From: Chloroflexota bacterium
GTDB lineage: Bacteria; Chloroflexota; Anaerolineae; Promineifilales; Promineifilaceae
Assembly (NCBI GenBank): GCA_008501785.1
Contig: QQUD01000985.1
Location: 1-6,891 of the forward strand
Direction of reading: 5' to 3'
DNA: 6,891 nt
Below are positions 1-6,891 of this stretch, one piece after another. Below the pieces are notes generated by a model. It saw only the letters and a list, made by a program, of their open reading frames with translations, had not been told where the DNA came from and did no database searches. How positions within the stretch are numbered: the stretch's first letter is position 1; each line of letters starts with the position of its first letter. The position numbers and the translations under genes are program-made.

Positions 1-436
1 CGATGCACCATTTCGCAAACCGCTCATCTGGCCCAGGATGCATTACCATGTAGCGCACCTCATTGCCGTATGGCTGGTCCCAGCCAAAATGATGGTAGCC
101 GGTGTGAATGATCAAAATGTCGTCTTCACGAACTTCAACGCGCTCTTCAATCATTTCCGGTGTGTACACATCAAAATCACCGCAAATGTCGCTCAAATCG
201 ACAATCGCCGCATCTCCAACTAAGAAATCAAGCTCAAGCGAGGCGATATCTTTGCCAGGGGTATAAAAGTGAATTTCGCCATCCAAGTGTGTGCCAACAT
301 GGTTTGAATGAGTCACAACTTGTCCATTCGCGCCATTTGGTGCGAGTCGTTTGAAATACTTTACCTGTAGCGGTTCATAAGTTGGCCAGGGAGGTGTACC
401 AATACCTAATGGCATTGTGAGATCGATAAATTTCAT
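1..436 (-). CDS. Cyclase family protein (kynurenine formamidase-like metal hydrolase), 5' part only
   Basis: The first 145 codons are present and the gene runs off the window at base 1. The start ATG at 436-434 has a good ribosome binding site (AGGAGA, 450-445) 8 nt upstream. The protein opens MKFIDLTMPLG, typical of the cyclase family (PF04199), and carries the metal-binding signature HVGTHLDGEIH at residues 46-56, matching HxGTHxDxxxH. His46, His50 and Asp52 are the expected metal ligands. A further family-like patch, MHPGPDERF, lies near residue 133. Characterised relatives hydrolyse amide bonds of aryl or cyclic substrates (N-formylkynurenine, isatin). The substrate here is unknown. The position downstream of FdrA and DUF1116 genes, with an amidase upstream, suggests ring opening of a cyclic amide or ureide; this is inference. 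It is separated from the methyltransferase gene by 178 bp holding a repeat, so it may have its own promoter, though I saw no convincing one. Confidence 0.88.
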   Translation of the reverse strand, partial: MKFIDLTMPLGIGTPPWPTYEPLQVKYFKRLAPNGANGQVVTHSNHVGTHLDGEIHFYTPGKDIASLELDFLVGDAAIVDLSDICGDFDVYTPEMIEERVEVREDDILIIHTGYHHFGWDQPYGNEVRYMVMHPGPDERFAKWCI

Positions 437-494
437 CTAAAAAGTCTCCTTTTGATTGTTTAGATTGGGGGATTGAAAAAGCCATCTAGTTAAT

Positions 495-599
495 GTCATT
501 TCGAGGTCCCCCGAGAAATCCCTGCGTTCTGTTATGAGAAAGCGTTAGGGATTCCTCCCTTCGGCTGCGCTCAGGGCAGGCTTCGGACTTCGGAATGAC
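495..599. repeat. Imperfect intergenic inverted repeat (element A, long form)
   Basis: The outer arms, 495-506 (GTCATTTCGAGG) and 588-599 (CTTCGGAATGAC), pair at 10 of 12 positions. An inner pair, 513-523 (GAGAAATCCCT) and 547-557 (AGGGATTCCTC), pairs at 10 of 11. The stretch 558-587 on the right is unpaired in this scheme but carries a minor 4-bp stem (557-560 with 573-576). The element fills much of the gap between the methyltransferase stop and the cyclase start. It has no T-tract, so it is not a standard terminator. Its left end matches the shorter hairpin at 5188-5215, so the two look like members of one REP- or MITE-like family. Confidence 0.75.
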
Positions 600-614
600 G
601 GTTCTCCCAACCTC

Positions 615-1400
615 TTATTTCTTTATCCCAATAAAATGATAGAAGTTTGCGAGGGAGATATACGGCCGTTTACTTCTCACCGCCATCTCCAAAGCTTCTA
701 GTTTTTCATAAAAAACTGGATCATATTTGCGCTCATTGTCGGCCATGAAATCGCAAATACAACGAATCCCGTATTGCGCCTCAACCGTGAAGTTGTTTGA
801 GGACAACAATTCAATCAATTCGTTTTCTGTGTAACGCTGGATATTTGTATTGAAAAGCTCTACGAATTTTGTTCGTTTATCTAGCTGTTCCAAAGCGCCT
901 TGCATGTCATATTCGCGCAGCGCCAGTTTGAATGTTTCTGCATGAGGATTGGTGATGATGAGGGACAGGATACCATTTGGTTTGAGACTGTTATGGATGG
1001 ATTGGAGAACGGCCGTTACATCCTGAACATATTGCAAAACATTATGACACAACACTACATCAAAAACAGGGTCCGCATAATGTTTAGCCAACTGCTCTGC
1101 ATTCCCAACGGTAAATGTCATCTTGTCAGCAATCCCTTTCGCTTCAGCAAATTGCTGTCCTTGTGCAATCATTTCGGCCGAAAAATCCATAACCGACAAT
1201 GAGAATCCAGACTGCGCTAACGGAACCGCATCTAAGCCATTCCCACCACCCAAATCAAGGATTTTTGCTGGCGGTTGAGGCAAATGTGGCTGCAAATTTG
1301 CCTCGGCAATCCGGTATCGCAACTTTCCCCAAGGTGCATCCTGCCACGCTTGCCATGCCGCCATGCCATCGTCGAAATTCTGTCCAACAACTTTTTCCAT
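615..1400 (-). CDS. Class I SAM-dependent methyltransferase, CmoM/SmtA-like
   Basis: A 261-residue Rossmann-fold methyltransferase. Counting from the chosen start, motif I LDLGGGNG is at 48-55, the acidic residue after strand 2 is Asp72 (VMDFS), and the motif IV region DVVLCHNVLQYV is at 114-125. The resemblance to E. coli CmoM, which methylates 5-carboxymethoxyuridine in tRNA, runs the full length: an N-terminal NFDD, AEAKG after motif I, a GIR..CDFM patch near 211-219, and the C-terminal PYISLANFYHF in place of PYITLGRYIHV. Whether it acts on tRNA here is unproven. I chose ATG at 1400 because GGGAGG lies just before it and the family has a short N-terminus. An ATG four codons upstream (1412) with a weaker AGGA site is also possible. 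Only 30-42 bp separate it from the DUF1116 stop, so co-transcription is likely although the pathway link is unclear. Confidence 0.85.
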   Translation of the reverse strand: MEKVVGQNFDDGMAAWQAWQDAPWGKLRYRIAEANLQPHLPQPPAKILDLGGGNGLDAVPLAQSGFSLSVMDFSAEMIAQGQQFAEAKGIADKMTFTVGNAEQLAKHYADPVFDVVLCHNVLQYVQDVTAVLQSIHNSLKPNGILSLIITNPHAETFKLALREYDMQGALEQLDKRTKFVELFNTNIQRYTENELIELLSSNNFTVEAQYGIRCICDFMADNERKYDPVFYEKLEALEMAVRSKRPYISLANFYHFIGIKK

Positions 1401-1442
1401 TATTCCTCCCATTCGTTAATTCCTAACATTCGTTGTCCTCAC

Positions 1443-2693
1443 TCACGCCAAATCATACTTCTCAGCAAACGCAAACAGCGATTCTTCAAACACATTCATC
1501 GGCGGCAGCACCAATCCGGCACCCACCTGACCAATGCCAGCATCCCGGTGTGCAATGCCGGTGTTGATTTGTGGACGAATGCCCAACTCAATCACTTTGC
1601 GAATGTCAACACCAACTGGCGTACCGCGAAAACCAAGGGCCGGAATCGTGAACAATTTGTGCTCGCCGACGCTGATTTCGTACATCGAGAGTGTCGTGTT
1701 CAAAGCCATTTCCGGCGTCCCGCTGATAAAAGTGACGATTGCGGGAGCCGTTGCCATCGCAAACGCACCAATGCCTGCTGTTTCGGTAATCGTGCTGTCG
1801 CCAATGTCGCCGCTGGCATCGTCAGCGGTAAAGCCGGGGAAGTAGAGGCCATCTGGCTGACCCACTGGACCCGTGAACCAGCGATTGCCTAACCCACTAA
1901 CACGAATGCCTAAATCAGTGCCATTCCGTGCCATTGTGGTCATGACGGTGCTGCCTTCAACGCCGTGACCCGCATCAGCCATTGCTTTACAGGCTGCCAT
2001 TACCGGATTGAGTACCGTGAGTGCATTTTCGGCCATGAATTGCAGCACTTTAGCTTTATCGGCATCGCTAAAACTGGTTTGCGCCAGCAGTGGGGCCAAT
2101 TTTGCCGTGAACAGGATAGAGCCTGCCTTGTTGCGATTATGCCCTTCGTCACCCATGTGCAGCGATTCGGAGAGCAAGGCGCGGATGTCAATGCCGTCTT
2201 CACTGAGCATTAAAGCTTCAGCAATCATCGACCCAAGTGTGTCGTTCATCCAGTGCAGTTTGTCGAGCACTTCTTGGCTGTATGCGCCATAGCGCAGCAC
2301 TTTGCCGTAGCCTTCGTTCAGATTGGAGTACGCTTTGTTGCCATGCGTCACGTTTTCGATGACGTACACTTTCATCGATGATGATGTCACGCCTGCCATT
2401 GGACCGACAGCATCATGCTCGTGGCATGGTTCCAGGTCAATGGCTCCTGATTTGACAAGCTGTTCGGCGCTGTCCCAATCGGTGGCTTTGCCTTCAAAGA
2501 TGAGTGCCCCCACAATTGCGCCTCGCATCGGTCCTGATGCACGTTCCCAGGTGATGGGCGGACCGGCGTGCAGCAGCAGGTTGTCGCGCATACCGGGAAT
2601 CACATCAATGGCTGGTGCGATGGTTTTGAGAATCGGACGGGCGTCCATCATGCGGGAAACGGCCGTTTCATTGGCCTTTTCAATATCAATCAT
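1443..2693 (-). CDS. DUF1116 (YlbE/AllG-type) protein, likely oxamate carbamoyltransferase-type subunit
   Basis: A 416-residue protein of the DUF1116 family, full length for the group. Seen in the sequence: EPCHEHDAVGPMAGV at 88-102 (a Cys/His-rich family signature), MGDEGHNRN at 180-188, MARNGTDLGIRVSG at 254-267, and the Gly-rich GIAHRDAGIGQVGAG at 379-393. In E. coli the homologue YlbE (AllG) is encoded next to FdrA (AllF) in the allantoin regulon, and the AllFGH set is assigned to oxamate carbamoyltransferase, which makes carbamoyl phosphate from oxalurate. The same type of reaction is inferred here; the actual ureido substrate is not known. The start ATG has a strong GAGGAG site (2705-2700) 6 nt upstream. 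The gene is divided from its usual partner fdrA by a toxin-antitoxin pair and a palindromic element. No DUF2877 (AllH) gene is seen between them or downstream within the window. Confidence 0.9.
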   Translation of the reverse strand: MIDIEKANETAVSRMMDARPILKTIAPAIDVIPGMRDNLLLHAGPPITWERASGPMRGAIVGALIFEGKATDWDSAEQLVKSGAIDLEPCHEHDAVGPMAGVTSSSMKVYVIENVTHGNKAYSNLNEGYGKVLRYGAYSQEVLDKLHWMNDTLGSMIAEALMLSEDGIDIRALLSESLHMGDEGHNRNKAGSILFTAKLAPLLAQTSFSDADKAKVLQFMAENALTVLNPVMAACKAMADAGHGVEGSTVMTTMARNGTDLGIRVSGLGNRWFTGPVGQPDGLYFPGFTADDASGDIGDSTITETAGIGAFAMATAPAIVTFISGTPEMALNTTLSMYEISVGEHKLFTIPALGFRGTPVGVDIRKVIELGIRPQINTGIAHRDAGIGQVGAGLVLPPMNVFEESLFAFAEKYDLA

Positions 2694-2711
2694 GTCTCAC
2701 TCCTCTGTAAG

Positions 2712-2772
2712 TCGTAGGACAAAACGTTGTTTTGTCCGGGTCAGATGGTCAAGACAGCGTCTTGACCTACGA
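2712..2772. repeat. Three-way-junction palindromic element (element B)
   Basis: This 61-bp element has a 5-bp outer stem, TCGTA (2712-2716) with TACGA (2768-2772), closing two perfect 9-bp hairpins. Hairpin 1 is GGACAAAAC/GTTTTGTCC (2717-2725 and 2729-2737, loop GTT). Hairpin 2 is GGTCAAGAC/GTCTTGACC (2747-2755 and 2759-2767, loop AGC). The linker is 2738-2746. It sits three bases beyond the vapC stop and ends 18 bases before the DUF1116 start. There is no T-run on the transcribed side, so it is not a canonical terminator. It may be a mobile palindromic repeat or an mRNA processing or attenuation site; that part is inference. Confidence 0.8.
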
Positions 2773-2774
2773 AT

Positions 2775-3185
2775 TTAGTTTTGCATTTCTAGAAATTGCT
2801 GTGGCGTAACGGCCGTTTCTGGAAACTCTCGCAATACTTTCTTATCAACTGTAACTAATGGAACTTGTAATTCTTGAGCAAGTGCAACAAACTCACAATC
2901 ATAAGCCGAACAATTGCTTGCTTTTGCAAGACGATATACGTCATTAGTAGCGATGTGAAATTCATAATCACGCATCCTGTTTTGTGCAGCTTGCGTGATT
3001 CGTGACACTTGGGAGAGTGTCAGTAGGTCTTTTCGTAAGAAAAGCAAAGCAGTGTTGCGAAATTCGCCTCGCCATAAAAAGGGTGCCACCCAAGTAGCAT
3101 CTTTTTTATGAACACTTGCAGCAATTTCTGTGAAGTCACCTTTAATGTAATAATAAACAAGCACATTTGTATCTACGACAATCAT
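2775..3185 (-). CDS. vapC: PIN-domain ribonuclease toxin (VapC-type)
   Basis: A 136-residue PIN domain. The acidic metal-binding residues are visible: Asp5 in VVDTNVLVYY, Glu41 in WRGEFRN, Asp96 in SAYDCEFVALA, and Asp114 in VTVDKKVL. Length and spacing are normal for VapC toxins, which are Mg-dependent endoribonucleases, most known ones cutting tRNA or rRNA. The RNA target here cannot be predicted. The ATG start overlaps the stop of the antitoxin gene by four bases (ATGA, 3185-3182), the usual translationally coupled arrangement. The C-terminus contains ETAV encoded by one copy of the ACGGCCGT octamer. The gene looks more AT-rich than fdrA and the DUF1116 gene around it, which fits acquisition by transfer. 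All catalytic residues are intact, so the toxin is probably functional. Confidence 0.92.
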   Translation of the reverse strand: MIVVDTNVLVYYYIKGDFTEIAASVHKKDATWVAPFLWRGEFRNTALLFLRKDLLTLSQVSRITQAAQNRMRDYEFHIATNDVYRLAKASNCSAYDCEFVALAQELQVPLVTVDKKVLREFPETAVTPQQFLEMQN

Positions 3186-3424
3186 GGACGGCCTTCATTT
3201 TTCCATTGATCTAGTTCTTCGTTTGTTAAATGATAGTGTGCGGTTAGTTCACGCAGTTTACGTGCTTCGGCTTCAAGCTCTTCTGGTCTGGGCCGATAGG
3301 TTTGAAATGCTTGCTCAATAAGCAAGATTACTTCATTATTGATGCTGCGACGATTTGCTTTGGCGGATTCCTTCAATTTTTTATAAAGATCGTCCGGAAT
3401 GTTTTTTATCGTAACAGTTGCCAT
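3182..3424 (-). CDS. vapB: Ribbon-helix-helix antitoxin (VapB/FitA-type)
   Basis: An 80-residue antitoxin. The N-terminus MATVTIKNIPDDLYKKLKE followed by ANRRSINNEVILLIEQAF is a ribbon-helix-helix DNA-binding domain of the Arc/FitA kind: a basic/polar strand then two helices, ending near residue 45. The charged C-terminal part (PRPEELEAEARKLREL, then NEELDQWKNEGRP) is the expected toxin-binding tail. I chose ATG at 3424 because a consensus AAGGAGGT lies 7 nt upstream; an in-frame extension to about 3457 would run into the operator palindrome and adds nothing family-like. It should bind VapC to neutralise it and repress its own promoter through the palindrome at 3448-3468. The pair is transcribed antitoxin first, and the stop overlaps the toxin start. 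Confidence 0.9.
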   Translation of the reverse strand: MATVTIKNIPDDLYKKLKESAKANRRSINNEVILLIEQAFQTYRPRPEELEAEARKLRELTAHYHLTNEELDQWKNEGRP

Positions 3425-3431
3425 GAAAAAT

Positions 3432-3439
3432 ACCTCCTT
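3432..3439 (-). promoter_or_regulatory. Consensus ribosome binding site of vapB
   Basis: AAGGAGGT on the minus strand, a full match to the Shine-Dalgarno consensus, 7 nt before the ATG at 3424. It fixes the antitoxin start and is one of the strongest sites in the window, consistent with antitoxin being made in excess over toxin. Confidence 0.85.
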
Positions 3440-3447
3440 GATGCTGG

Positions 3448-3468
3448 TTGGAACCATTGTGGTTCCAA
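3448..3468. promoter_or_regulatory. Perfect palindrome, probable VapB operator
   Basis: TTGGAACCA (3448-3456) and TGGTTCCAA (3460-3468) form a perfect 9-bp inverted repeat around a 3-base centre. It lies 24 bp upstream of the vapB ATG and overlaps the proposed -10 element. RHH antitoxins typically bind such repeats as dimers of dimers, and placement over the promoter fits autorepression. Binding itself is inferred. No second copy of this palindrome was seen in the window. Confidence 0.72.
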
Positions 3469-3485
3469 AACGGTTTATTTGTCAA
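3456..3485 (-). promoter_or_regulatory. Candidate sigma-70-type promoter of vapBC
   Basis: On the minus strand a perfect -35 box TTGACA (3485-3480) is followed, after 18 bp, by CACAAT (3461-3456), a 4-of-6 match to the -10 consensus. Transcription would begin near 3449, just ahead of the ribosome binding site. The -10 lies inside the palindrome at 3448-3468, so a bound antitoxin would block RNA polymerase. The -35 is convincing; the -10 is only fair. Confidence 0.6.
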
Positions 3486-3501
3486 GAGGTAAAATGGGAT
3501 G

Positions 3502-5172
3502 TTACCCGCTTTTCATTTTTGCCAAAAGCGCCATCAGCTTTTCGTTGCCCCCCGCAGGCGGTCGCCAATCAACCTGAACGGCCGTTCCCCCCTGACCTAC
3601 CAAACTGTCATAAAACGATTCGAGACCGACGTTAACGGCCGTTAATCCCTCACCAAACGCATCCAACGAAATGGTGGGATGATTGGAAACGACAGGCTGG
3701 GCAACGCGGTTAAATACATAGTCCACTGCCTCATTTGTTTCCGAGAAAATGGTCGCACCCGCAGCCGCTAATTGTTCAATTTGACTGTTCAAATCTTGCG
3801 GGTCTTCATCGGTGCCGACGACAATGGCGACCACTTTTTTGTTGGCTTGTTTGGCTTCGGCAATGATCGGGCTGAGTTCAATGGCCGGGTTGGCGTGCGA
3901 CCCTTCGCCCAGCACCACATCGAGCAAAATGATGCCCACATCCGGGTCAGCGATTTCCTGCCTCATGCGGCGAATGCGCAAATCGTTGTCCATCATGGGG
4001 TGCAAACGACCTTGTGTAAACGCGTCTTCGCCGAGGTCGAGGATGGTGTGTCCCTGGCTTTGCATCAGGTTGGGCAGCTGCTGTTCGGGGCGAATGGGGA
4101 TGTTGGTGTAGATGGGGTCGAGAACGGCCGTTAAGCCCAACAACGCCTCATAAGCCAACGTGCCACCCGAGAACAGCCCACGCATATACCCATCCACCGG
4201 CTCACGGTGCGACCCCAAAAATGAAGTTTGCACCGAACTAGAAATATGAACGGCGATTTCGGCCGTATCAGCCAAATTGATCGCAAAGTGCAGATTGCCG
4301 ATTTGATGACCAGGAACTGGATACCCGAGGAAGTTAACCACAACATCTTTGCCGGTTGCTTGTGCCGCTTGCAGTAATCGAGCGGCTTCCTGTGGTGCAG
4401 GGGGTTTAGAAACTAGCACAATCACACGCGTGTTTCGATCTCGGCCCAGTAAATCTAATGCTTGATGCGCGGTAATGCCGCCAACGTCCGATTTGAGGTC
4501 ACGGCCACCGGTGCCAATCGCCTGCGAGATGCCGCTGCCCAAATTGTGGATTGCGCTGCTGACGGCTTGCAAACCTGTGCCAGACGCCGCCACAATGCCG
4601 ATGCGTCCACGTCGTGTGCGATTGGCAAAGCCGAGGCCAATGCCGTTGACGATGGCGGTGCCGCAGTCGGGACCCATCACCATCAGCCCTTTGGCTTGTG
4701 CCATTTTTTTGAGGCGCACTTCGTCTGCCAAAGGCACATTGTCGCTGTAGAGGAAGACGTGTTTGCCCTGGCGCAGCGCATCTTCAGCCACACCAGCCGC
4801 ATAGCGACCAGGTACCGAGATGAGTACCCAACTGGCATCCGGCTGCATTTTTATCGCGGCGTCGAGGCTGCGTGGGCGGAAATCTTGGGCAGCACCAGAG
4901 GCGGCGCGTTTGGTGAGGAGTTTGTCAACTTGGGAGAGGGCGGTGGAAACGGCCGTTTCGCTTTCCCCCTTCACCACAATCAATAAATCATCTGCTTTCG
5001 CCGCAATTCCATCGGGTAGCAGCCCACCCGCTGCCAGCAAATCCCGGTTTGCAGGGGTTGCCATCACCACACCTGCATCTTCTACGCCATCCAAAGCGGC
5101 CAATGCTTTTTGCAATTGCATTAACACAACTGAATCATAATAACTTCCTGCTCGAATTTCATGTTGAATCAT
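3502..5172 (-). CDS. fdrA: FdrA/AllF-type acyl-CoA synthetase-like protein, likely carbamoyltransferase subunit
   Basis: A 556-residue protein, close to the 555 of E. coli FdrA and alike from end to end. Landmarks: MATPANRDLL at 37-46, a succinyl-CoA-ligase-alpha-like CoA-binding fold with SDNVPLADEVRLKK at 143-156, GPDCGTA at 167-173, AASGTG at 195-200, GTGGRDL at 220-226, SKPPAP at 255-260, then a second ligase-like half with GGTLAYEA at 336-343, ILLDVVLGEG at 415-424, and the C-terminal VNVGLESF and PPAGGNEKL. FdrA was named as a suppressor of an ftsH mutation in E. coli; its family is now linked to oxamate carbamoyltransferase (AllFGH), which yields carbamoyl phosphate. That the present protein transfers a carbamoyl group is inferred from family and from the nearby DUF1116 gene. 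The ATG start has only a weak GGAAG site close by. Four ACGGCCGT octamers fall in this gene, each encoding Thr-Ala-Val. Confidence 0.93.
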   Translation of the reverse strand: MIQHEIRAGSYYDSVVLMQLQKALAALDGVEDAGVVMATPANRDLLAAGGLLPDGIAAKADDLLIVVKGESETAVSTALSQVDKLLTKRAASGAAQDFRPRSLDAAIKMQPDASWVLISVPGRYAAGVAEDALRQGKHVFLYSDNVPLADEVRLKKMAQAKGLMVMGPDCGTAIVNGIGLGFANRTRRGRIGIVAASGTGLQAVSSAIHNLGSGISQAIGTGGRDLKSDVGGITAHQALDLLGRDRNTRVIVLVSKPPAPQEAARLLQAAQATGKDVVVNFLGYPVPGHQIGNLHFAINLADTAEIAVHISSSVQTSFLGSHREPVDGYMRGLFSGGTLAYEALLGLTAVLDPIYTNIPIRPEQQLPNLMQSQGHTILDLGEDAFTQGRLHPMMDNDLRIRRMRQEIADPDVGIILLDVVLGEGSHANPAIELSPIIAEAKQANKKVVAIVVGTDEDPQDLNSQIEQLAAAGATIFSETNEAVDYVFNRVAQPVVSNHPTISLDAFGEGLTAVNVGLESFYDSLVGQGGTAVQVDWRPPAGGNEKLMALLAKMKSG

Positions 5173-5187
5173 AAGCTTCCATCAACC

Positions 5188-5215
5188 GTCATTCCGAGGT
5201 CTTCCGAGGAATGAC
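5188..5215. repeat. Short hairpin repeat (element A, short form)
   Basis: GTCATTCC (5188-5195) and GGAATGAC (5208-5215) are perfect 8-bp arms. Inside them, tandem G-A mismatches and a GG/CC pair close a TCTT loop. The left end aligns with 495-519 of element A, and the right end matches that element's right terminus, so this looks like an internally deleted copy. It lies 15 bp upstream of the fdrA start codon and could affect translation initiation; that is inference. Confidence 0.72.
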
Positions 5216-5246
5216 ATATAAGGGTTGGGTCTTCAGGAATTCAGGG

Positions 5247-5302
5247 GGAGTGGAGGCTTTAGCCGGTTCTCACAAGACCGTTCCGGCTAAAGCCTCTACT
5301 CC
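5247..5302. repeat. Long intergenic stem-loop repeat (element C)
   Basis: Arms 5247-5266 and 5283-5302 pair at 19 of 20 positions; the exception (5252 with 5297) is a G-T pair when read on the + strand. The loop is 16 bases. The core of the arms reads GAGGCTTTAGCCGG. The element lies between the lipoprotein stop and the fdrA start. No T-tract follows it on the minus strand, so it is not a textbook terminator, although so strong a stem could still stall RNA polymerase or protect a 3' end. It has no similarity I can see to elements A or B, so it is a separate repeat family. Confidence 0.78.
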
Positions 5303-5343
5303 AAATCCTACGAGATCCCAAAGAGCCAAGAGTTTTAAATTGT

Positions 5344-6129
5344 TTATTTACACAAAATTTGTTCCGCAATTGGAACTATCATAGTTACCCATTCGGCGTA
5401 CATTTCGCTGGATGGGTGGAGAAAATCTTCGGCTGTTAACGTGGCATCGGTGAGGGCCTTGCGCGAGATTGGGGTGATGTCAATGAAGTGTGCCCCTGTC
5501 TCTTCGGTGGCGGTGCGGTTGATAGCGTTGAAGGCGTCGATTGCGGCACCGATAGCGTCACGGTCCTCACGGTGCGCGAATGGGGTTGCGCCCCAGTCGG
5601 GAATGGAGACGACGATGACGTGGGATGGATTGTTGTTGGCGAAGGTTACGGCCGTTTCCAACAACCCCACAAACTCATCCCGATACACCTCCTGACTCAA
5701 CCCTCGATATTGATTGTTCACCCCAATCAACAGCGTCACCAAATCATACGGTCCTGTGGGCTTGGTGTTGGCGATACCTGTCATCAATTCATCTGTTGTC
5801 CAACCCGTTTTAGCAATTATTTCTGCATCTGTGATGGCAATGCCGTTTGACCGCAATGTGTTGACAAGCTGCACCGGCCATCGCTCCGCTTTCATCACAC
5901 TTTCACCAATCGTGTACGAATCCCCCAACGCCAGATAGCGAAAGGGTTGTTGATCGTCGTTGCAAACGGGAGTGGGTGTGGGAACGGCCGTTTTTGTCAT
6001 CATCCTCGTTGTAGTTGTTAAAATAGTTGCTGTTGGTGTCGGCTGCGTTTTTGAAACTGACTGACATCCAACAACCGCCCAAACCAACAATAAATTAACA
6101 ATTAACAATTGCCAATTAACAATTAGCAA
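5344..6129 (-). CDS. SGNH/GDSL-family hydrolase, putative lipoprotein
   Basis: A secreted esterase/lipase-like enzyme of about 261 residues (counted from TTG at 6129). A hydrophobic N-terminus ends in a lipobox AVVGC with the lipidated Cys at residue 22. A Thr/Pro-rich linker follows to about residue 57, then the SGNH domain. Block I is LALGDSYTIGE (nucleophile Ser71), block II the Gly in AKTGW (109), block III GVNNQ (Asn138), and block V EDFLHPS with Asp235 and His238. All four SGNH blocks are intact. The substrate is unknown. The start is uncertain: no ATG precedes the lipobox. TTG at 6129, with GGGGA upstream, gives a signal of ordinary length; TTG at 6159 is the longest option. Either start overlaps the amidase 3' end. 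The signal peptide lacks the usual basic residues and is partly encoded by a 7-bp tandem repeat, which suggests a recently formed start. Confidence 0.82.
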   Translation of the reverse strand: MLIVNWQLLIVNLLLVWAVVGCQSVSKTQPTPTATILTTTTRMMTKTAVPTPTPVCNDDQQPFRYLALGDSYTIGESVMKAERWPVQLVNTLRSNGIAITDAEIIAKTGWTTDELMTGIANTKPTGPYDLVTLLIGVNNQYRGLSQEVYRDEFVGLLETAVTFANNNPSHVIVVSIPDWGATPFAHREDRDAIGAAIDAFNAINRTATEETGAHFIDITPISRKALTDATLTAEDFLHPSSEMYAEWVTMIVPIAEQILCK

Positions 6130-6139
6130 TTGACAATTT
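6093..6139. repeat. Heptanucleotide tandem repeat (AATTRVC)n
   Basis: Six consecutive 7-bp units and a partial seventh start at 6093: AATTAAC, AATTAAC, AATTGCC, AATTAAC, AATTAGC, AATTGAC, AATTT. AATT is invariant; the other three bases vary. The array covers the amidase stop codon (6125-6123) and encodes both the last residues of the amidase and much of the lipoprotein signal peptide, where three units make a 21-bp period giving QLLIVNW/QLLIVNL. Confidence 0.88.
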
Positions 6140-6891
6140 CCCCAATCTCCTCCGCCCAACCCAGCATCGCTTCATCTTCATACCAGCGGCCCGTGAGCTG
6201 AATGCCCAGCGGCAGTCCTGCCTCGTTTTTACCGGCTGGCAGCGTCAGCGTAGGCAGCCCGCTGTGGGTCCAGGGCAAATTCATGACCGGATTGCCTGTG
6301 CTGGACAATCCCATCGGGGCCGCTCCTTGTGCCGGTGGTGATAGCATGATGTCAATGCTGTTTTTCTTCATCAGGCGAGTCAATTTGTCCCGCAGTTTGG
6401 CACGACTCGCCCATGCCTTTTTGAATTGCCTATCAGAAACTTTTTTGCCACGTTTGATTAAGTCGGCTGTTTTGGGATGGTAAAGACGGCCGTATTTAGC
6501 AAACCACGATTTGTGAACTTGCGCCGTTTCAGCGGCAACCAACAAATTGTGCCGTTCATAAATATCGTCGAAATCAGTTAAAGCCAGCACTGATTTTACG
6601 GCAAACCCTGCTTCATGCAGCTTTTTGCAGATTTGCCGATAATGCGTGCGCCCTTCCGGTGAGACATAATCGAGATAACGTCCTTCGGGGACGCCGAACA
6701 CCGGCTTGCGACCTGGGTAGCCAAATTGCCAATGGTCACACAATAAATTGGCGGTCATTTCGATACCAGCAATGTCTGGCGCAAACAGGCCGACGGTATC
6801 GACTGAGGCGGACACGGGGATCACGCCCTTTTTGGAGATGCGATCATAGCTTGGTTTGTAACCGATCACGCCGCAATACGCCGCTGGGCGA
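6123..6891 (-). CDS. Amidase-signature enzyme, C-terminal 255 residues (5' end outside window)
   Basis: The frame is open to the window edge. The visible part begins RPAAYCGVIGYKPS, the tail of the amidase signature; in the common form GGSxxRPAAxCG the catalytic Ser lies about three residues before this, just outside the window. An apparent GTG start at 6869 is internal and should be ignored. The C-terminal half has the family hallmarks SPPAQGAAPMG, STGNPVMNLPWTHSGLP, LTLPAG and GLPLGIQLTGRWYEDE. Enzymes of this family (Ser-cisSer-Lys) hydrolyse amides, including ureido acids and biuret-type compounds in some pathways. The substrate here is unknown; placement upstream of an FdrA/DUF1116 locus suggests a role in amide or ureide catabolism. 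The last residues, IVNC, are encoded by the heptad repeat rather than by conserved sequence, so the C-terminus may have been reset by repeat expansion. Confidence 0.9.
   Translation of the reverse strand, partial: RPAAYCGVIGYKPSYDRISKKGVIPVSASVDTVGLFAPDIAGIEMTANLLCDHWQFGYPGRKPVFGVPEGRYLDYVSPEGRTHYRQICKKLHEAGFAVKSVLALTDFDDIYERHNLLVAAETAQVHKSWFAKYGRLYHPKTADLIKRGKKVSDRQFKKAWASRAKLRDKLTRLMKKNSIDIMLSPPAQGAAPMGLSSTGNPVMNLPWTHSGLPTLTLPAGKNEAGLPLGIQLTGRWYEDEAMLGWAEEIGEIVNC

Follow-up and report, generated by a model that had tools for sequence, protein, structure and literature searches.

How does one 8-bp palindrome come to occur eleven times in 6.9 kb of bacterial DNA, within six different genes? 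The question is posed by contig QQUD01000985.1 of the Chloroflexota assembly GCA_008501785.1, of which positions 1 to 6,891 are the stretch analysed here and referred to as the window. The word, ACGGCCGT, is its own reverse complement, and its eleven exact copies compare with an average of 0.13, and never more than 1, in 200 dinucleotide shuffles of the window. The host genes, all on the minus strand, encode an S-adenosylmethionine (SAM) methyltransferase (two copies), an AllG/DUF1116 protein (one), a PIN toxin (one), FdrA (four), a GDSL lipase (two) and an amidase (one). Nine of the eleven copies lie in the phase ACG-GCC-GTN and encode Thr-Ala-Val (TAV), four of them within Glu-Thr-Ala-Val, and the remaining two read SKRPY and KYGRL. 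Every TAV in the window genes (9/9; eight genes examined, two truncated at the window ends) is spelled by the word. The initial annotation had reported the excess in six genes, the predominant phase and the four Glu-Thr-Ala-Val, and all were recounted as claimed. It had further likened the word to HIP1, the highly iterated palindrome (HIP) of cyanobacteria, and held that a DNA-level force rather than codon bias lay behind it; counts, shuffles and orthologue comparison have since borne out this view.

Genome-wide counts, made on relatives of the window genome, indicate that ACGGCCGT is almost certainly a HIP-class element that pervades the genomes of half of the species examined of one Anaerolineae-type Chloroflexota order. 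Tracing the AllG protein in public genomes gave 80 loci, with the word at 0.8–2.2 per kb in fifteen of them (L001–L013, L015 and L018). At the level of whole genomes, 27 of 56 species of the order carry it at 0.99–2.10 per kb, with a maximum of 15,176 copies per genome, and one more, G031, at 0.44 per kb. We refer to the genomes of the ACGGCCGT dialect, 28 species, as HIP-A. A reversed-letter control, TGCCGGCA, is outnumbered by ACGGCCGT 17- to 201-fold in these 27 genomes and 10-fold in G031. Among 301 genomes drawn evenly across the phylum, the starting genome set apart, one member of the order reached 0.18 per kb and all others stayed below 0.1. Expressed per Mb, 27 of the 56 species have 990–2100 copies and one has 440, where HIPs are described at about 500–2500 per Mb (part of PMC4390886), and the observed-to-expected ratio (O/E) in G010 is 85. 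The genome-wide over-representation that the initial annotation had proposed to count was thus found, in relatives, by a wide margin. On a tree of RpoB, G031 adjoins a clade of genomes lacking the element (HIP-less); it is perhaps a decaying or mixed genome.

Codon usage leaves most of this excess unaccounted for. With open reading frames called by a simple longest-frame rule, 37 HIP-A loci (574 kb) hold 937 copies, 822 of them within genes; seven loci are omitted from this set (two fully masked, one without a copy, and four short ones with copies), and a recount with none dropped agrees. Synonymous-codon shuffling within genes left a mean of 106 of the 822 (O/E 7.8), and this null is conservative because the shuffled codons have already been shaped by the element. 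All three codon phases are enriched, exceeding the codon shuffle 5-, 14- and 33-fold; the bias towards in-frame TAV arises because the protein sequence there permits the word, relative enrichment being higher in the other two phases. In strictly intergenic DNA the composition-corrected O/E surpassed that of coding DNA, at 141 versus 82 in G010 (28 sites in 15.2 kb) and 133 versus 69 in G041, a genome of the TCGGCCGA dialect described below (25 sites in 16.5 kb).

The degree to which permitted positions are filled separates HIP-A from other genomes just as sharply. Where the encoded peptide allows the word (TAV, [DHNY]GR or xRPx), it is present at 443/460, 254/299 and 112/157 positions, respectively, with every HIP-A locus included, and at 253/266, 162/189 and 69/102 when only loci picked blind to their content are taken. 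Distant relatives (L022–L080, defined by a protein identity of 74% or less; of the six of their genomes compared with the list of order members, none appears there) fill 5/77, 2/134 and 1/88. Nine nearby loci without enrichment of the word, GC-rich overall, fill 8/23, 2/51 and 0/36; among these, L016 and L020 come from genomes outside the 56, and L021 and L132 from G021, in which only the core of the word is enriched. The peptide itself has become common, TAV occurring at 2.88 per 1000 amino acids in HIP-A versus 0.31 in the distant relatives, about nine-fold. Occupancy of TAV is complete in the rpoB regions of HIP-A genomes (70/70) and high around methyltransferase genes, which are often mobile (43/47; 112/147 over all phases). 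Single-base deviations from the word in the 37 loci amount to 14–15% at the outer bases and 1–3% at the inner ones, as in HIPs, and words with one inner position altered do not exceed what composition predicts (51 versus 75 expected in G010 genes, 57 versus 70 in G041). The initial annotation had also described a conserved flanking palindrome of 12–14 bp; this is weaker than claimed, since the flanks vary and the commonest pair, A..T, accompanies only 185 of the 937 copies.

Comparison of orthologues shows how the sites arise. At ungapped sites, 862 of 1351 comparisons of one HIP-A genome with another retain the word exactly and 37 are one base off, versus 12 of 399 exact and 78 one base off when HIP-A sites are set against six relatives without the word. 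Once comparisons with a word split by the alignment are removed (78/1447 within HIP-A and 24/436 against non-HIP genomes), the other genome has a gap at the site in only 18/1369 and 13/412 cases, and all others show substitutions in a base-for-base alignment. The word is created by point substitution and then retained, and nearly every protein-permitted position is filled. Retention extends to silent positions: in HIP-A pairs the third base of ACG is kept at 0.95 inside the word versus 0.51 outside, and that of GCC at 0.85 versus 0.61. Fourfold sites at most 10 codons from a shared copy are conserved at 0.485, versus 0.454 at more than 40 codons in the same gene and the same pair. Constraint therefore falls mainly on the 8 bp, and a slight regional trend accompanies it. 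In G010, the proportion of permitted positions filled is flat with respect to the nearest other copy (107/119, 148/164, 98/108 and 16/19, from near to far), and the spacing of copies is near Poisson (coefficient of variation, CV, 1.12); in G041 the CV is 0.91, with a short-range deficit. A required spacing or periodic layout was rejected on these grounds. We consider it very probable that a drive acts at the DNA level on each site.

Two simpler accounts of the word can be judged from these data. One is that nothing is maintained but the TAV peptide, the word following from composition, codon usage or protein constraint. TAV is indeed the most frequent setting and accounts for nine of the eleven window copies, but the codon-shuffle O/E of 7.8, the enrichment in three phases, the higher intergenic than coding ratios, the preservation of synonymous sites inside the word and the sister genomes that lack it leave this account next to no probability, and the codon shuffles, the contrast in occupancy and the intergenic excess led us to rule it out. 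Nor is the word kept at these positions in six relatives without it (12/399 exact); equal conservation of TAV in distant homologues was one of the outcomes that the initial annotation had named as its own refutation. The other account, in-frame insertion of a short mobile palindrome, was suggested by the initial annotation and has nothing further in its favour; homologues align almost always without a gap at the sites and differ there by substitutions, unlike what a mobile insertion or a miniature inverted-repeat transposable element would leave. We rejected it, and its chance of being correct is vanishingly small.

The remaining species of the order reveal that the word has dialects. TCGGCCGA takes its place in two species, G014 and G041, with 9414 and 7668 copies versus 198 and 85 of ACGGCCGT; GCGGCCGC does so in G019 only (12,040 copies), and TGCCGGCA, elsewhere our control, in G038 (3665 copies versus 14 of ACGGCCGT). 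Five genomes (G028, G057–G059 and G021) have the bare core CGGCCG enriched 9.4- to 17.5-fold with flanks not fixed, and permitted CGGCCG positions are filled at 281/355 in G028 and at 53–60% in the others. Each dialect leaves its own signature in the proteome: Ser-Ala-Asp/Glu is spelled by the dialect word at 166/193 positions in G041 and Ala-Ala-Ala at 138/156 in G019. Dialect labels were assigned from counts, with the core genomes labelled by hand (G060 by counts together with its sister G059); because of its GC-rich background, G047 was reclassified as having none. On the RpoB tree, which comprises 51 species because RpoB was unmatched in five of the 56 genomes, core-dialect G058 among them, these labels require 8 changes versus 22 when shuffled; the ACGGCCGT dialect is clustered, and the seven species on it labelled T or core form one group with a support of 97.

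We asked where the sites of one dialect fall relative to those of another. In three gene alignments taken from the rpoB regions, 1 of 14 TCGGCCGA, GCGGCCGC or TGCCGGCA sites occupies an ACGGCCGT column, and the dialect sites that L014 and L019 have in the alignments of AllG and FdrA likewise lie elsewhere, bar one column common to L011 and L019. Conversion of the flanks of old sites at a dialect switch is largely rejected by this result; since dialect sites are mostly off ACGGCCGT positions, a switch replaces the map of sites instead of editing flanks. Two observations on related words were made in passing. GCCGGC, the core reversed, is scarce in several of the genomes G019, G014, G002, G003 and G011 (51 copies in the 8.0 Mb of G019 versus 13,814 of CGGCCG), and in the more distant Anaerolineae L043, L045, L046, L053, L055, L061 and L062 GGCC is nearly missing (0–9 copies in 9–21 kb), as if under GGCC-specific restriction.

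The word also reaches DNA that is phage- or plasmid-like. A scan of viral contigs for close pairs of the word returned at least 120 stretches, of which 80 were examined; the densest of these 80 has 3.7 copies per kb, a value biased upward by the selection. Genes for a terminase or a portal protein are carried by two word-bearing viral contigs, L373 with 18 copies in 9.3 kb and L388 with 14 in 7.1 kb, and the word is likewise borne by a 100-kb element that encodes ParA and FtsK-like proteins. These two contigs have 11/12 and 10/11 permitted positions filled, and the 100-kb element 46/52. Since filling extends to some contigs of phage or plasmid-like character, the activity responsible would have to operate on any DNA present in the cell or be sensed by it.

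To our knowledge HIP1, GCGATCGC, has no agreed function, although it has long been known. HIP1 is, like the present word, a GC-rich 8-bp palindrome at 1–2 copies per kb. Measured in the same way, on plasmids and not chromosomes, HIP1 reaches 2.07 per kb with an O/E of 109 on pANL of Synechococcus elongatus, where it spells 41 of 44 Ala-Ile-Ala; the corresponding counts are 40/45 on a plasmid of UTEX 3055, 32/38 in Pseudanabaena, 12/21 in Leptolyngbya and 8/18 in Nostoc. The counterpart values for G010 are 1.93 per kb genome-wide, the O/E of 85 given above and 226/232 TAV. Such agreement in density, O/E and occupancy marks the Chloroflexota element as a phenomenon of the same kind, with a different word and in a different phylum. 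It is not HIP1 itself: the core is CGGCCG here and CGATCG there, the Chloroflexota dialects are arranged by phylogeny with no tracking methyltransferase found, and sites occur also in some phage contigs, a feature examined on the Chloroflexota side only. CGGCCG and GCGGCCGC are identical to the recognition words of EagI- and NotI-type restriction-modification systems. Restriction sites are normally avoided, whereas in the genomes measured the 8-bp words exceed expectation about 70- to 140-fold, and no cognate enzyme was identified.

Published relatives of the phenomenon help to place it. In the part of PMC4390886 that treats HIPs, one-base deviations fall mostly at the outer bases, as they do here, the palindromes are linked to methyltransferases and mismatch repair in cyanobacteria, and some HIP1 genomes are without a recognised CGATCG enzyme. 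The same part of that source lists alternate cyanobacterial HIPs (GGCGCC, rCCGGy, GCsGC, GGGATCCC and TCGATCGA), with a candidate methyltransferase. There too a palindrome replaces a palindrome, and TCGATCGA differs from HIP1 in the outer bases only, as do three of the dialects here from one another; the alternates are described there as sporadic, whereas ACGGCCGT occupies 28 species clustered on the RpoB tree. The DNA uptake sequences (DUS) of Neisseriaceae, as covered in part of PMC3630211, occur in thousands of copies with a fixed core, a lineage-specific remainder and dialects that follow phylogeny. An over-represented word with lineage dialects is also what we observe, but DUS work through competence, and most HIP-less relatives here possess ComEC too. 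We found no report of a HIP-type element in Chloroflexota in a limited search of the literature, and the passages searched on methylation in sludge contain nothing on this word.

What could drive the word? We lean, by a small margin of confidence, towards a sequence-specific drive by a putative activity that recognises CGGCCG. Some activity in these cells would read the core, with flanks read according to lineage, and would favour each sequence that matches; the drive could take the form of selection for being bound, as a self-tag or a DNA-handling site, or of a bias of repair or conversion in favour of the word, and changes in the specificity of the reader would create the dialects. That the putative reader is undescribed and not a methyltransferase strikes us as an evenly balanced proposition. 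A fuller version, which we put forward tentatively and think more probably wrong than right in its entirety, is a so far undescribed system for recognition of CGGCCG-centred palindromes in Chloroflexota, distinct from methyltransferases, that would tag all self DNA, fill permitted positions almost completely, rewrite tripeptide usage, switch most sites when the dialect changes and be matched by phages, HIP1 being its independently evolved counterpart.

The chief competitor, the Elhai model, has a core-specific methyltransferase mark the site, with mark-directed mismatch repair creating and preserving the words. It draws strength from cyanobacterial genomes in which a highly over-represented word is accompanied by one or more putative methyltransferases that could methylate it (part of PMC4390886), from the outer-base pattern of that work, reproduced here, and from the presence of MutL in 49 of the 56 genomes and of some 5-methylcytosine (m5C) or N4-methylcytosine/N6-methyladenine (m4C/m6A) methyltransferase in most of them. 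The enzymes themselves do not line up with the element, however. Half of the HIP-A genomes (14/28) have a match to the m5C family PF00145, five of the 28 (G003, G010, G011, G015 and G031) lack PF00145 and, for PF01555, have no match better than 1e-10, and G021, with CGGCCG 9.4-fold over-represented, has no match to PF00145, PF01555, PF02086 or PF02384. The m4C/m6A enzymes vary widely between genomes. Among the 60 best-scoring methyltransferase loci no family follows the element, the largest cluster made up wholly of HIP-A having three members. The D12 family, at E ≤ 1e-52, is present in 24/28 HIP-A genomes but also in 7/18 HIP-less ones, and four core-dialect genomes have no match; the tree of 30 D12 proteins mixes element states, and the solved structures nearest to one D12 protein are DpnII methylase 1 and Dam; GCGGCCGC and CGGCCG contain no A. 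Across the 56 genomes we thus found no universal m5C, m4C, D12 or HsdM methyltransferase, absences that assembly gaps soften (RpoB itself was matched in 51/56). Filling in G010 is not lower near other copies, contrary to the saturation of the model as set out in the part of PMC4390886 that treats it. Methylation as the basis is not supported here, the methyltransferase site proposed by the initial annotation is neither shown nor favoured, and we regard the Elhai model as rather unlikely. MutL, by its distribution over the genomes, does not discriminate between them. As a separate observation, the MutL_C match ends early (profile 116–140 of 142) in a HIP-A subclade (G001–G004, G006–G008, G010, G018, G040 and G042) that includes some of the highest densities.

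Two other readings start from known DNA-handling systems. The word could mark DNA as self to a nuclease or translocase, in the manner of Chi or of a segregation or nucleoid site, with selection filling the genome; a per-site benefit independent of neighbours, together with phage mimicry, fits such a tag. Known Chi and KOPS words are polar and non-palindromic, a polarity that ACGGCCGT does not share, and the known enrichment of Chi is below the about 70- to 140-fold seen here. No candidate reader was found either, and we think this reading improbable. Still less probable, in our estimation, is a drive of the uptake type, in which competent cells prefer word-bearing DNA and the word accumulates with Neisseriaceae-like dialects. 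Dialects on a common core do recall those of DUS (as described in part of PMC3630211), and ComEC is present in 26 of 28 HIP-A genomes. It is about as common without the element (15/18 HIP-less genomes; 50/56 overall), so that it does not discriminate, and filled phage- and plasmid-like contigs are not readily predicted by uptake of chromosomal DNA. We also know of no DNA uptake sequence that is palindromic.

Several observations weigh against the sequence-specific drive by a CGGCCG-recognising activity. No reader protein was identified, and selection and biased repair predict the same frequencies. The TGCCGGCA dialect is without the CGGCCG core and is less filled (16/25 and 21/41). In the nine nearby un-enriched loci TAV stands at 0.48 per 1000 amino acids, with 8/23 spelled by the word, and against these loci the TAV excess is accordingly six-fold, not nine-fold. 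The effect of neighbouring copies is small when stratified (+0.03), but pooled conservation declines from 0.52–0.53 within 5 codons of a shared copy to 0.41 beyond 160, leaving some room for a repair-radius model. On contig C1 of G041 the fraction of TCGGCCGA copies under 200 bp apart is 0.169 versus 0.261 for random placement, unlike ACGGCCGT in G010, and full independence of sites therefore fails there. Among mobile DNA, a further ten viral pieces returned by the scan fill 25/100 positions and, because the contigs were chosen by close word pairs, their densities are biased upward and do not give the share of phages that carry the word. The genomes are mostly metagenome-assembled, and a contig of 16.8 kb in a HIP-A genome (L081, G001:C1:1-16808; GC 0.55) has no copy at all; it may be a contaminant introduced by binning or DNA acquired recently.

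Within the window, the copies are distributed over the six minus-strand genes as follows. The SAM-methyltransferase gene (615–1412) has copies at 662..669 (phase 2, SKRPY) and 1009..1016 (V-TAV-L). The AllG/DUF1116 gene (1443–2693) has one at 2659..2666 (E-TAV-S), which is kept in 16/16 HIP-A sequences of the alignment and altered in the six others, and the PIN-domain toxin gene (2775–3185) has one at 2809..2816 (E-TAV-T). Four copies fall in the FdrA gene (3502–5172), at 3578..3585 (G-TAV-Q), 3635..3642 (L-TAV-N), 4124..4131 (L-TAV-L) and 4949..4956 (E-TAV-S). The GDSL-lipase gene (5344–6159) contributes those at 5648..5655 (E-TAV-T) and 5984..5991 (K-TAV-P), and the amidase gene (6123–6890, truncated at the window end) that at 6486..6493 (phase 1, KYGRL). 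The PIN toxin is paired with a FitA-like ribbon-helix-helix antitoxin, the pair (2775–3457) standing between the AllG and FdrA genes, and the intergenic stretches 494–610 and 5190–5230 are similar by eye (gtcatt..cgaggt..ccgag).

The finding is real, and with it the HIP class, whose treatment in the relevant part of PMC4390886 concerns cyanobacteria, gains a word in a further phylum. A second phylum, with dialects, HIP-less sisters and phages that can follow the word, offers new comparative contrasts, and it can now be asked which gene changes along with the dialect and whether methylation is required. These genomes illustrate that a DNA-level force can set the tripeptide usage of a proteome, with TAV raised six- to nine-fold and Ser-Ala-Asp/Glu or Ala-Ala-Ala in other dialects, which is relevant to the inference of codon usage, selection and gene transfer in these uncultured bacteria. 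The word could, in addition, provide a genomic signature for binning and for the assignment of phages to their hosts.

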